In this document: positions 25,932-31,303 of the stretch, one piece after another
How the letters are laid out: every line of letters begins with the position of its first letter
Position numbering within the stretch: position 1 is the first letter of the stretch
Assembly: GCF_000430005.1 (NCBI RefSeq)
Contig: NZ_AUCY01000016.1
Span: 1-64,000 of the forward strand
Direction: 5' to 3'
Length of the DNA stretch: 64,000 nucleotides
Source of the DNA: Desulfovibrio cuneatus DSM 11391
GTDB taxonomy: Bacteria > Desulfobacterota > Desulfovibrionia > Desulfovibrionales > Desulfovibrionaceae
Position numbers and translations under genes: made by a program
Notes under the pieces: model-generated
What the model was told of the DNA's origin: nothing
The model's database searches: none
The model's input: the letters and a program-made list of their open reading frames with translations, nothing else

Positions 25932-26020
25932 AAGGCACTCCTAGGTGTTTACAGTTGGTCAGCCAGAGCAGCATTTACTGGCAATAGGCCTATTTTATTA
26001 ACTAATTGTTGAAGTTCAGG

Positions 26021-26299
26021 CTATAAATCTTCCATTTCCTCATCAAACACGTCTCGCACAATGTCCATGGCCACCACATCCAGAATGGAGTCATCGTCTG
26101 TAGGGGTAAGCACAGGTAAATAGTCTTGCCCTTCGCTTAATGCCTGCCCGGCTTTATCGGTATACACCAGCACGCGTTCGCGCATGGCGTCCATAACAAC
26201 CTGTTCCTCATTTTCCAAGGCAGCAAGTACCCCTTCATAAGAAAGGCTTTCCAGGGCTTTACGTTGTTCTGCCTTAGCGGCCTCATACGCATTGGTCAT
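26021..26299 (-). CDS. small acidic hypothetical protein, 92 aa
   Basis: Start ATG 26299 with GGAGGAT 4 nt upstream. Alpha-helical first half (AYEAAKAEQRKALESLSYEG), acidic C-terminus ending DVFDEEMEDL. No motif recognised. It lies about 100 nt after cysE and 90 nt before the 210-residue acidic gene, so it is probably transcribed with them. Confidence 0.6.
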   Translation of the reverse strand: MTNAYEAAKAEQRKALESLSYEGVLAALENEEQVVMDAMRERVLVYTDKAGQALSEGQDYLPVLTPTDDDSILDVVAMDIVRDVFDEEMEDL

Positions 26300-26406
26300 A
26301 TATCCTCCACCCCATAGGGCAGTATTGCAAGGTTTTCAGGCCTGTTTGGGAAACGCTGCTGTATTCAGAACGCCTCAAGGAAACAAGCCAGCTCCAGAAA
26401 AATAGT

Positions 26407-27369
26407 CTAATTTGGTGATTTACCAACAATCTCTTCCGCCGCAGTAGGCTGGGTAGAGCGTTGCTGCACAATGCGTGAATGGGGGGGCACGCCGTGGGTA
26501 AGCCACACGTTACCACCAATGATACTGCCTGAACCAATGGTTATGCGCCCAAGAATGGTAGCACCAGCATACACGGTCACACCATCTTCCAGCACGGGGT
26601 GCCGGGGTTGGCCTTTCACCAATACACCTTGCTCATCCTTCTGGAAGGAAAGCGCCCCAAGGGTAACCCCCTGGTACAGGCGGCAACGCTTGCCCAGCAC
26701 ACAGGTTTCCCCAATGACCACCCCTGTGCCGTGGTCTATGAAAAATTCTTCACCAATAGTGGCACCGGGGTGAATATCAATACCTGTGCTACCGTGGCCC
26801 ATTTCACTGATAATGCGGGGAATAAGGGGCACTTCCAGGGAATACAGGGCGTGGGCAATGCGGTGGTGGGTAAGGGCGGCAATGGAAGGATAACAAAAAA
26901 TGGTTTCCGCAGGCGACTTGGCCGCCGGGTCACCTTCATAGGCGGCTTTCACATCGCTTGCCAACAGGTCGCGTATGGCGGGCAACTGTTCCATGAAACG
27001 TAAAGCACCTTCGTGGGCTTTATCTTCGCACCACTGGCACTCCACATTGGTGTCGTCGCACATAAAGCAGTAGCCGCGGTGAATTTGCTTTTTCAGCAGG
27101 CAAAAAATGGAATCCAGGTTTGCCGCCATGTGGTAACGCAGGGAATCGCCCACTACCCTGCCGCTTCCGTAATAGCCTGGAAACAGTGCAGCCCGCAGGC
27201 GGTCCATAAGTTCATGCAGCATTGCAAGGGAAGGCATGGAAACCGCCCCCTGCCCAGCAACAGGAATGGAGTAATGCGCCGCAGGACGGCACAGGGCTTC
27301 TGCCACAGAGGCAACCAAACGGCTGCTGGTAGCATTGGCCGCCAGTTCATGCAGTGATATTTCTTTCAT
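26407..27369 (-). CDS. cysE: serine O-acetyltransferase
   Basis: A 320-residue protein of the longer EpsC/SrpH-like type. The N-terminal 160 residues are helical. The C-terminal left-handed beta-helix has hexapeptide repeats: IDIHPGATIGEEFFIDHGTGVVIGETCVLGKRCRLYQGVTLGALS, then HPVLEDGVTVYAGATILGRITIGSGSIIGG. The catalytic histidines are in IDHGTGVVIGE and near EMGHGST. It acetylates serine with acetyl-CoA to O-acetylserine, the substrate for CysK, whose gene lies 57 nt upstream in the same operon. SD AAGGA is 8 nt before ATG 27369. Confidence 0.94.
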   Translation of the reverse strand: MKEISLHELAANATSSRLVASVAEALCRPAAHYSIPVAGQGAVSMPSLAMLHELMDRLRAALFPGYYGSGRVVGDSLRYHMAANLDSIFCLLKKQIHRGYCFMCDDTNVECQWCEDKAHEGALRFMEQLPAIRDLLASDVKAAYEGDPAAKSPAETIFCYPSIAALTHHRIAHALYSLEVPLIPRIISEMGHGSTGIDIHPGATIGEEFFIDHGTGVVIGETCVLGKRCRLYQGVTLGALSFQKDEQGVLVKGQPRHPVLEDGVTVYAGATILGRITIGSGSIIGGNVWLTHGVPPHSRIVQQRSTQPTAAEEIVGKSPN

Positions 27370-27425
27370 GCTTGTGTTCCTTATACAGCAACGCCACAGG
27401 CCGCTGTTCTTGGGCTACCTTCCGT

Positions 27426-28376
27426 TTATTCTGCCGCAGCAAACAACGCCGTGGAAAGATAGCGTTCTGCCGTATCGCACGCTATAAACACAATGCGCTT
27501 GCCCTTGTTTTCCGGCTGGCAGGCAAGATGCAGGGCGGCATGGGCCGCAGCACCGGCAGAAATGCCCGCGAAAATACCCTCTTCACGCATAAGCCGCCGG
27601 GCAGCCTGCACGGCCTGCGGGCCGGAAACACGAATAACGCCATCCAGCAGGGAAACATCCAAAGCCTGGGGCACAAACCCTGCCCCAATGCCCTGAATGG
27701 GGTGCGGCTGCGCCGAACCACCTGAAAGTACTGGCGATTCATCCGGCTCTACCCCAAAGGTGCGCACCATGGGGTTATGGGCCTTAAGCGCCCGGGCAAC
27801 CCCGGTAAAAGTGCCGCCAGTACCAATGCCAGCCACAAAAATATCAATTTTGCCCCCGGTGTCACGCCAAATTTCCTGCCCGGTGGTGCGTTCATGCATC
27901 AGCGGGCCTGCAAGGTTGGCAAACTGCTGCAGCAACACGGCACCTGGGTTGGCAGCGGCAATGCGCTCGGCTTCATTTACGGCCCCGGTCATACCGTGGG
28001 CTTTGGGGGTAAGCACCAGTTCTGCCCCCATGCCACGCAAAATGGCTTTGCGCTCTTCACTCATGCTTTCCGGCATGGTCAGCACCAGTCGGTAGCCCTT
28101 CACCGCAGCTACCACGGCAAGGCCAATGCCTGTGTTACCGCTGGTAGGTTCCACCACCATGTGGGGTGGGTTTGCATGGGGCACAAGCTGCCCGGCGTGC
28201 TCCGCGGCCTCAACCATGGCCAGGGCAAGGCGGTCTTTTACGGAAGAAGAAGGATTATAAAACTCCAGCTTGGCCAACACTTCTGCCCCGCACTCCGGCA
28301 GGGAAGCCGGAATGGCGTTTAGCCGAACCAAGGGGGTATTGCCAGTAAGGTTAAGTACTGAATTCGCTATCGTCAT
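27426..28376 (-). CDS. cysK: cysteine synthase A (O-acetylserine sulfhydrylase)
   Basis: 316 residues, PLP-dependent, making cysteine from O-acetylserine and sulfide. Motifs: LTGNTPLVRLN, the PLP lysine in NPSSSVKDRLAL, the substrate loop EPTSGNTGIGLA, GTGGTFTGVARAL for the PLP phosphate, and EPDESPVLSGG. Start ATG 28376 has AAGGAG 6 nt upstream; the frame extends further but overlaps PFKFB. The first 26 nt overlap the end of the PFKFB gene. In a sulfidogenic bacterium, sulfide supply makes this the main entry to cysteine. Confidence 0.95.
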   Translation of the reverse strand: MTIANSVLNLTGNTPLVRLNAIPASLPECGAEVLAKLEFYNPSSSVKDRLALAMVEAAEHAGQLVPHANPPHMVVEPTSGNTGIGLAVVAAVKGYRLVLTMPESMSEERKAILRGMGAELVLTPKAHGMTGAVNEAERIAAANPGAVLLQQFANLAGPLMHERTTGQEIWRDTGGKIDIFVAGIGTGGTFTGVARALKAHNPMVRTFGVEPDESPVLSGGSAQPHPIQGIGAGFVPQALDVSLLDGVIRVSGPQAVQAARRLMREEGIFAGISAGAAAHAALHLACQPENKGKRIVFIACDTAERYLSTALFAAAE

Positions 28377-29601
28377 GGTTTTCTCCTTGTGGGGCCATAA
28401 AGCGCACAAGTTCAAACAGTTTGCGTCTATGGGTTGCCTCGATATAATAATACTGGTTTTGTGGCACGTAAATATACGGCACATCTTTTGTATTACGGAA
28501 CACAAATAAGGAAAGGATCATACGGTTTACAGCTTGGTGCCCAATAACAAGCATACCTGGCTTGCCACCGGAAATAAACAAAGCCTTTCGCAAGCCCCGT
28601 TCTACCCGTTCGCACATGGTACTGTACCCTTCCCCTTGCGGATACACATAATGATATTTATCATGGTGCCGCGCAAGATATTCCTCGGGCATTTGCTCGC
28701 GAATGTCTTCATAGCGCATACTGTCGCAAATACCGGCATCAATTTCGTCCAGCTCTGGCAAACACACATGAATACATTCCGGGTGCATGGCCAGCACCGG
28801 GGCAGCCGTTTCCAGCGAACGTTTTCGACTGGAGGTAAACACATAAGCCAAATGCTTGCCACGAAACTGCTCCGCAAGGTTGTAGGCCTGCTCCATGCCA
28901 TGTTCCGTCAGGCTTGGGTCACCCCCAATGCGCCCTTCAAGGTTGAACACGCTCTCACCGTGCCGGGCAAGGTACATGCCGCGCACAAGGTCTGAAACCA
29001 CCACGTCGCGAATGTGCAGGTAATACGGAAGCTCAGCGGCATTATTTTCTGCCAGCACCTGGTTGCGCAATGTATCTACCCGCATGTAGTGCGCTTCGGA
29101 AGAAAGGGGGGAATAGATGCTGGAGTAATATTCAATGCGCTGCATAAAGCACCGCACCGCTTCTTCCTGGGAAAGGCTCGAAAATTCCGGCAACCTTGCC
29201 TTGCATTGCACCGTGGTGGCCAAAAGGTCATCATCATTATTGGCACATTCAATGAATAGCACCGGGGCTTCCGTAAGCAGTTCGCACAGGTGATCGCGCC
29301 GCTTGCGGCCCACATTGGTGCCATCCAGAATAGCCACCTCACCACCAGATTCCAGGAACTCTTTAGCGTGCAGGGCATTCATAACGGCCAAATCTTCACG
29401 CTGCTTGCGGCCTAGTTCGTTGTCAGGCCGGTAAAACTCCGGGTGGGAAGAAGACGGCCCTAGAAATTTTCTGCGCAATTCACCATTATTAAAAAGCTCT
29501 GTGGCAATGCCTTCCGCAATAAAGCCTTCTTTCAGGCGGTGGGCCAGGGTTGATTTGCCCCTGGCAGGCAACCCCACCATTACTATAAATAACCGCCTCA
29601 T
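28351..29601 (-). CDS. bifunctional PFK-2/FBPase-2-like protein (PFKFB type)
   Basis: A 416-residue protein with the eukaryotic PFKFB layout. The N-terminal kinase half has P-loop GLPARGKS (residues 10-17), NNGELRRK, the long segment PDNELGRKQREDLAV and LDGTNVGRKRR. The C-terminal histidine phosphatase half has LARHGESVFN (RHGE at 213-216), GDPSLTEHG, TSSRKRSLETA, the acidic LDEIDAGICD and VIGHQAVNR. In eukaryotes this makes and degrades fructose 2,6-bisphosphate, the regulator of glycolysis; the bacterial role is not established. Both active sites look intact. It heads the cysK-cysE operon by overlap. A MITE-like element lies upstream. Confidence 0.88.
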   Translation of the reverse strand: MRRLFIVMVGLPARGKSTLAHRLKEGFIAEGIATELFNNGELRRKFLGPSSSHPEFYRPDNELGRKQREDLAVMNALHAKEFLESGGEVAILDGTNVGRKRRDHLCELLTEAPVLFIECANNDDDLLATTVQCKARLPEFSSLSQEEAVRCFMQRIEYYSSIYSPLSSEAHYMRVDTLRNQVLAENNAAELPYYLHIRDVVVSDLVRGMYLARHGESVFNLEGRIGGDPSLTEHGMEQAYNLAEQFRGKHLAYVFTSSRKRSLETAAPVLAMHPECIHVCLPELDEIDAGICDSMRYEDIREQMPEEYLARHHDKYHYVYPQGEGYSTMCERVERGLRKALFISGGKPGMLVIGHQAVNRMILSLFVFRNTKDVPYIYVPQNQYYYIEATHRRKLFELVRFMAPQGENHDDSEFST

Positions 29602-29701
29602 AAGAACGCTCCTTGTGGTGCATGCCGTATGGCAGCACCCTTGTGTATTGGCAAATGGTTACCATTTGTGCCACCTGCGCCCGGCAACGTCAATGCCCTT
29701 C

Positions 29702-29850
29702 TAGAGCATTTTACCTTTGAAAAGTTGTATTAATTTTCCGTAATACACATGGGCAACTCAACATAACCCAAGGTGATAATAGAATAAAACGACACGCTTC
29801 GCGAGTGTCCGCTGCGCGTCCACAGAGCATTTCACAGTTGAAATGCTCTA
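29702..29850. repeat. family-2 MITE-like element, copy 3 (149 bp)
   Basis: Ends TAGAGCATTTTACCTTTGAA (from 29702) and TTTCACAGTTGAAATGCTCT (to 29850) are inverted repeats of each other. The right part (GAATAAAACGACACGC, GAGTGTCCGCTGCGCGTCC) is the reverse complement of the left part of copy 1. It lies in the 350-nt gap between obg and PFKFB, where I see no gene. Confidence 0.75.
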
Positions 29851-29951
29851 ACCAAAAAGAACGGGGAGGAACCACACGGTTTCTCCCCATTCTGCAAACT
29901 GTATGTTACATGGCATGCTACGGATACAGGCAAGGCTCAAAGGCCCAAAGA

Positions 29952-31109
29952 CTATTCCAATTCGCGGGTATAAAACACCTGGATGTCGCATGTGGATTCA
30001 TCAAATTCATCGTCATCCTTTACTATTTCCGCTTCGCCTACCAAGCCGGGCAGTTTTGGTATTTTCCCGGCATATTCACCACGCGGTTCATGCAACGTAG
30101 TGCTGGCGTGCACTTCCCACATACGCTCGGTAAGGGGCTCAATGCCTTCCCCGGTAAGAGCGGAAATAAAGAATATTTCCCGCCCTGCTGCCGCGGCCTG
30201 TTCATGTAAAGTGGCAAGGCGTTCCGGCGTGGCAAGGTCAATTTTATTCACCACTTCTATTTGCTGGCGGGTGGTAAGTTCCGGGTCGAACAATTCAAGC
30301 TCGGTATTAATCAAATCAAAGGGCGCAAACGGATCGTCTTCTGGCATATCTTCCACACTGGCAATGTGTACAAGAAAGCGTGCGCGCTCCACATGCTTCA
30401 AAAACCGGTGCCCCAGGCCATAGCCTGTGTGCGCCCCTTCCACAAGGCCGGGTATGTCGGCAATGATCATGCGCCTATCATAGCTGCCGTCGTGCAGCAT
30501 AACGCCCAAGTTTGGCTCTATGGTGGTGAAGGGGTAGTTTGCTATTTTAGGGCGAGCAGCGGAAACAGCTGCAATAAAGGTGGACTTTCCGGCATTGGGC
30601 AAGCCAAGCAGCCCGCAATCGGCAAGAATTTTCAACTCCACCGCAAGGGTAAGCTCTTCACATGGTTCCCCTGGTTGGGCAAACCGTGGAGCACGCATGG
30701 TGGCTGACTTAAAAAATTCGTTGCCCCGGCCACCGCGCCCGCCATTGGCAATAATTGCTTCCATGCCAGTTTCGGAAAGGTCGCACAGCAATTCAGAACG
30801 GGTACCTTGCGTAAAGCGAAATACCTGGCTGCCCACAGGCAGTTCAATAACCAGGTCATCCCCCTGGCGGCCGTTACACTGTGAACCCTGCCCCGGCTGG
30901 CCGTTTTGCGCTTCATATAAGCGCTTCAGGCGAAAATCGTACAGGGAGTGCAGCCGGTCGCTGGCGCGCAGAATAACGTCACCGCCCTTGCCACCATCGC
31001 CACCATCCGGGCCACCCCTGGGAACAAATTTTTCACGGCGGAAAGAAACACACCCGTGCCCGCCTTTGCCTGAACGCACTGTTATGACGGCTTCGTCCAC
31101 AAAACGCAT
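29952..31109 (-). CDS. obgE: Obg/CgtA ribosome-associated GTPase
   Basis: 385 residues, essential GTPase in 50S maturation and stress response. Residues 1-158 form the glycine-rich Obg fold (VITVRSGKGGHGCVSFRREK, GGPDGGDGGKGGDVIL). The G domain has G1 GLPNAGKST, G2 PFTTIEPN, G3 DIPGL and G4 NKID; G5 is near FISALTGEG. A short acidic C-terminal tail follows (DDDEFDESTCDIQ). ATG 31109 gives the exact conserved start MRFVDEAVITV; the upstream frame to 31211 is not used. It follows rplU and rpmA, the usual bacterial arrangement. Confidence 0.96.
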   Translation of the reverse strand: MRFVDEAVITVRSGKGGHGCVSFRREKFVPRGGPDGGDGGKGGDVILRASDRLHSLYDFRLKRLYEAQNGQPGQGSQCNGRQGDDLVIELPVGSQVFRFTQGTRSELLCDLSETGMEAIIANGGRGGRGNEFFKSATMRAPRFAQPGEPCEELTLAVELKILADCGLLGLPNAGKSTFIAAVSAARPKIANYPFTTIEPNLGVMLHDGSYDRRMIIADIPGLVEGAHTGYGLGHRFLKHVERARFLVHIASVEDMPEDDPFAPFDLINTELELFDPELTTRQQIEVVNKIDLATPERLATLHEQAAAAGREIFFISALTGEGIEPLTERMWEVHASTTLHEPRGEYAGKIPKLPGLVGEAEIVKDDDEFDESTCDIQVFYTRELE

Positions 31110-31203
31110 AATATACCTGCTCTGGATTTTTTCGCTATAAAAAAGCGATTTGCAGGAAAGGCCTGCACCACATACTTTTTCAAAGCGCGGTTTACCATCC
31201 GCA

Positions 31204-31241
31204 CAGAGCATTTCGACAGTTTTAGCGTAGAAACACTCTTA
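31204..31241. repeat. family-2 fragment, copy 4
   Basis: AGAGCATTTCGACAGTTTTA at the left, with an inexact inverted ACACTCTTA at the right. Only the ends of the MITE-like element appear to be present. Confidence 0.4.
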
Positions 31242-31252
31242 TAAAAAGAAAA

Positions 31253-31281
31253 GGGCAAAAGCGGCCAACCCGCCTTTGCCC
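31253..31281 (-). terminator. terminator after rpmA
   Basis: GGGCAAAAGCGG pairs imperfectly with CCGCCTTTGCCC. On the minus strand the stem is followed by TTTTCTTTTT. It lies between rpmA and obg, so obg expression would need read-through or its own promoter. Confidence 0.7.
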
Positions 31282-31303
31282 AAAAAGTACCGCTTATCAG
31301 CGC

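Follow-up and report, generated by a model that had tools for sequence, protein, structure and literature searches.

Textbooks present fructose 2,6-bisphosphate as a control signal of eukaryotes, and the enzyme PFKFB makes and destroys it in animals and plants. A gene of this type in the bacterium Desulfovibrio cuneatus, placed next to genes of cysteine synthesis, raises the question of whether its product handles the same signal and whether it is connected with its neighbours. The gene was studied within a window of 64,000 nucleotides, which is the whole stretch of D. cuneatus DNA that we analysed. It lies on the minus strand, which an earlier sequence-only reading of this DNA had not given. 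The relevant features are listed below.

26407 to 27369, minus strand: cysE (serine acetyltransferase type), assigned by reading; 56 bp past the cysK stop codon.
27426 to 28376, minus strand: cysK (O-acetylserine sulfhydrylase type), assigned by reading; overlaps the 3' end of the PFKFB gene by 26 bp.
28351 to 29601, minus strand: PFKFB-type gene, an intact open frame encoding protein P0001 of 416 amino acids.
28383 to 28388, minus strand: ribosome-binding site AAGGAG of cysK, from the sequence; within the PFKFB coding sequence.
28411 to 28974, minus strand: fructose-2,6-bisphosphatase (histidine phosphatase) domain, residues 210-397 of P0001; Pfam PF00300 (His_Phos_1), 118 bits against a cut-off of 21.7.
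29089 to 29595, minus strand: 6PF2K kinase domain, residues 3-171 of P0001; Pfam PF01591, 110.6 bits against a cut-off of 27.
29609 to 29614, minus strand: ribosome-binding site AAGGAG of the PFKFB gene, from the sequence; 7 bases 5' of the ATG.
29952 to 31109, minus strand: obg GTPase gene, assigned by reading; upstream of PFKFB across a 350-bp gap.

The overlap of the PFKFB gene with cysK is as the sequence-only reading had described it, with cysK starting at 28376, which is M44 of a longer listed open reading frame. The TTG start at 28505 given for cysK in the list of open reading frames was considered and found unneeded; the start at 28376 has AAGGAG just before it.

Looking at the protein itself, Pfam hmmscan places 6PF2K in the N-terminal part of P0001 and His_Phos_1 in the C-terminal part, each far over its cut-off. 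Residues 5-382 form one unbroken match to rat testis PFKFB4 (phmmer against the PDB, E 1.2e-59), and the next matches are human PFKFB3 and the liver and heart PFKFB. Each half keeps its motifs intact: Walker A GLPARGKST (10-18) and DGTN (93-96) in the kinase, RHGES (213-217) and GHQAVNR (354-360) in the phosphatase. The PFKFB-type identity of P0001, with both halves of the bifunctional enzyme intact as had been proposed, is thus confirmed by domains, motifs and full-length match, far beyond chance. An AlphaFold model, for which an alignment of 44 sequences was the input, has a mean pLDDT of 90.5, and the top 26 Foldseek matches of this model are all PFKFB structures. The isolated rat bisphosphatase domain superposes on it with a TM-score of 0.89-0.90; over the whole protein the TM-score with PFKFB falls to about 0.46, a poor fit that probably reflects a different placing of the two domains in the model. 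P0001 is a bona fide bacterial PFKFB in sequence, residues and predicted fold.

The fructose 6-phosphate pocket of human PFKFB3 is lined by R74, R75, R98, D124, T126, R132, K168, R189 and Y193 (PMC3177832, PMC10491774). In the phmmer alignment all nine are matched in P0001 (R43, R44, R68, D93, T95, R101, K134, R155 and Y159, respectively), and an alignment of 44 bacterial proteins shows no variation at seven of these positions and almost none at the other two (T95 and R101). Concerning the bisphosphatase half, the alignment to PFKFB4 shows R213, H214, N220, R261, E286, Y297, R311, K315, Y326, H355, Q356 and R360 to be present. We equate these twelve with the residues of the liver bisphosphatase that serve in catalysis or contact the sugar phosphates, with phosphohistidine, general acid and sugar-phosphate roles; R311, K315, Y326, Q356 and R360 presumably correspond to R352, K356, Y367, Q393 and R397, which hold the sugar phosphate in the liver enzyme. 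Over the 44 bacterial homologues 11 of the 12 columns are invariant and that of Q356 is nearly invariant. The main evidence for a classical fructose-phosphate substrate is this near-complete invariance of the contact residues.

As a whole, these results are best explained by a working bifunctional PFKFB, and we consider this reading, drawn from sequence and model, to be probable. The kinase half would transfer phosphate from ATP to C2 of fructose 6-phosphate, the C-terminal half would remove the same phosphate via a phosphohistidine intermediate, and together they would set the cellular level of fructose 2,6-bisphosphate. The signal would most likely act at the fructose 6-phosphate/fructose 1,6-bisphosphate step, so that sugar-phosphate breakdown might be balanced against gluconeogenesis.

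PFK and class I FBPase are each encoded once in the D. cuneatus genome. Among 247 genomes sampled from the order, PFK (238), class I FBPase (240) and glycogen phosphorylase (218) are near-universal, and a co-occurrence search for a PFKFB partner found that the presence of PFKFB, in 110 of the 247, tracks none of these three; co-occurrence is therefore silent on which of PFK and FBPase, if either, responds to the signal. ATP-PFKs of trypanosomatids and plants, unlike the E. coli type, show the combination of GGDG and PKTIDND. The only PFK of D. cuneatus (locus L156, 3040-4656, G000:C6) has the signature GGDG...PKTIDND.

One alternative is that the PFKFB scaffold has shifted its substrate, and that the kinase/phosphatase pair acts on another sugar phosphate or on a metabolite of serine/cysteine flux, as the sequence-only reading had also suggested. 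Histidine phosphatases and P-loop kinases switch substrate easily, no matching NCBIfam model scores P0001 over its own cut-off, and cysE/cysK adjoin PFKFB in two separate lineages; all three points count in favour of a shift. However, every tested contact residue for fructose 6-phosphate and fructose 2,6-bisphosphate is kept across 44 diverse bacterial proteins, and most PFKFB homologues are found nowhere near cysteine genes. The proposal of a serine- or cysteine-related substrate is weakened by this conservation of all tested recognition residues, and a shift appears unlikely.

PFKFB3 is a kinase-biased isoform. It carries S at the position where P0001 R261 aligns with R in PFKFB4; the retention of R261 therefore argues for an active phosphatase. 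The catalytic residues are also intact in both halves of P0001. Both observations stand against an enzyme working in one direction, in which a single half (e.g. bisphosphatase or kinase only) would be active in vivo and there would be no true switch; this is quite improbable, although mammalian isoforms do differ in their kinase:phosphatase activities (PMC4196155).

An enzyme of this type is not peculiar to D. cuneatus, and the idea of a new regulator peculiar to this bacterium is not supported. 6PF2K is found over its cut-off in 110 of the 247 genomes sampled from the order, and an alignment-based scan of public genome contigs confirmed 299 relatives of PFKFB. The best 80 of these 299 belong mostly to Desulfovibrionaceae, Desulfobacteraceae and other Deltaproteobacteria, together with anammox planctomycetes (Scalindua, Brocadiaceae). 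Both Pfam domains are present in all 44 bacterial family members scanned. P0001 is thus, as judged from sequence, one member of a large, little-studied bacterial PFKFB branch and no one-off; a search of the open-access literature turned up no biochemical work on any bacterial PFKFB. Desulfovibrio desulfuricans has already been cited as a bacterial exception, in PMC9721465, which cites Rider et al. 2004. The premise that this signalling is considered eukaryotic is outdated, since an exception is known in the Desulfovibrio group itself.

Concerning the link with cysteine synthesis, PFKFB, cysK and cysE probably share one transcript, as gene order suggests: the first two overlap by 26 bp, and no terminator-like site was found between these genes. 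Co-transcription would tie PFKFB expression to serine and cysteine demand. A promoter and terminator scan gave nothing above chance, and Rfam found no regulatory RNA over 26000-31300.

In the near relative at locus L036 the order is obg-PFKFB-cysE, without cysK; in that at L033 it is obg-PFKFB, followed by the contig end. PFKFB is absent in all four genus relatives sampled (G208, G229, G215 and G209; loci L167-L170), and in these cysE comes straight after obg. The obg-cysE arrangement of these four loci represents an empty site relative to the PFKFB and cysK found at 26407-31109 in D. cuneatus. The cysE of D. cuneatus is 67% identical to the PFKFB-adjacent cysE of L036 and 64-68% identical to the obg-adjacent cysE of the genus relatives, while its cysK shares no more than 55% identity with any cysK of the four. 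Because of this low identity and the empty site, cysK too may have moved in.

A different order, cysK-cysE-PFKFB, is seen in genus g20 (G135, G136, G138, G151, G184 and G202) and at L106. It is found on one strand at L002, L005, L006, L009, L014, L106, L123 and L145-L149; in the two loci read closely (L145 and L146) PFKFB starts three bases after the cysE stop codon. The D. cuneatus cysK is about 56-61% identical to the cysK preceding cysE in g20. In the PFKFB tree, which was midpoint-rooted, built from bacterial sequences and lacks some loci, the two cys-linked PFKFB groups are far apart. A single clade of D. cuneatus-type and g20-type sequences was rejected with a p-AU of 4e-8, a value obtained with a long D. 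cuneatus branch and for a group named after the tree had been seen. The link between PFKFB and cysteine genes appears to have arisen twice; this sequence-based result is suggestive, and the double origin could be due to chance because many lineages were compared.

The neighbour survey covered 100 PFKFB loci, 86 of them with more than 1.2 kb on each side. Other PFKFB lineages have varied, unrelated neighbours, which makes the cysteine link lineage-specific; there is no universal partner gene, and no glycolytic gene was recognised among the recurrent neighbours, named by eye. Other contexts, also read by eye, include a TyrRS-like gene in Desulfovibrio and a pyrD-like gene elsewhere. The cysteine coupling that had been claimed therefore stands as a real gene adjacency in D. 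cuneatus and returns, with the genes in another order, in a second lineage, but it is absent at most PFKFB loci.

Two further observations came from the same survey and tree. In a large deltaproteobacterial group, mostly Desulfobacterales (e.g. L043, L044, L053, L056-L058 and L103), PFKFB adjoins a radical-SAM-like gene and a divergent gene for a membrane protein resembling Bax inhibitor-1, both recognised by eye. The anammox PFKFB (L064, L079 and L109) branch from inside the deltaproteobacterial portion of the midpoint-rooted tree, a pattern suggestive of transfer from one phylum to another.

The long branch of P0001 in the tree (0.97) and the absence of the gene in 4/4 genus relatives mean that PFKFB is dispensable in the genus group and could be drifting. 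That the gene is a relic or a recent arrival close to being lost, left between obg and the cys genes by chance, is nonetheless very improbable: the 416-residue frame and its ribosome-binding site are intact, no family-invariant residue is lost, and the gap within the genus is better read as loss elsewhere than as a chance gain in D. cuneatus, because the nearest relatives (L033 and L036) keep PFKFB at the same place after obg.

Beyond the probable bifunctional enzyme, a broader proposal may be put forward tentatively, although we hold it to be rather doubtful: in Desulfovibrio-type and anammox bacteria fructose 2,6-bisphosphate would be a true and widely used second messenger, and at least two lineages would have its enzyme coupled to the synthesis of cysteine from serine, so that the signal coordinates sulfide assimilation and carbon flow. 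Since all the substrate residues checked are kept in a large bacterial family, it can be tested directly whether bacteria use the same signal, on which enzyme this signal acts, and whether it came first in eukaryotes or in bacteria. The useful parts here are the family-wide conservation and the repeated cysE link; P0001 alone adds little.

Compared with known systems, the C-terminal half of P0001 has the histidine-phosphatase fold in common with the CobC and cofactor-dependent phosphoglycerate mutase families. These lack the kinase half, and P0001 is well under their curated cut-offs. The CobC alpha-ribazole phosphatase was rejected as a candidate identity; P0001 reaches 80.5 bits against an NCBIfam equivalog cut-off of 162.9 (TIGR03162), and is fused to a kinase, whereas CobC is single-domain. 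The 6PF2K proteins of Desulfovibrio and other Deltaproteobacteria, at 45-60% identity, resemble P0001 in length, in the presence of both domains and in residues, but mostly have other gene neighbours; P0001 is among the more diverged members of this family. Mammalian PFKFB1-4 have the same domain order as P0001 and about 30% identity over the whole length, and their Walker A, fructose 6-phosphate pocket, phosphohistidine and fructose-2,6-bisphosphate contact residues are the same. Animal PFKFB carry long N- and C-terminal extensions, which are missing in P0001: it starts four residues before the aligned kinase core, and its match to PFKFB3 begins at PFKFB3 residue 37. In contrast to the mammalian enzymes, P0001 has an operon-like gene setting and, at its C-terminus, a KLFEL motif conserved in its own family.
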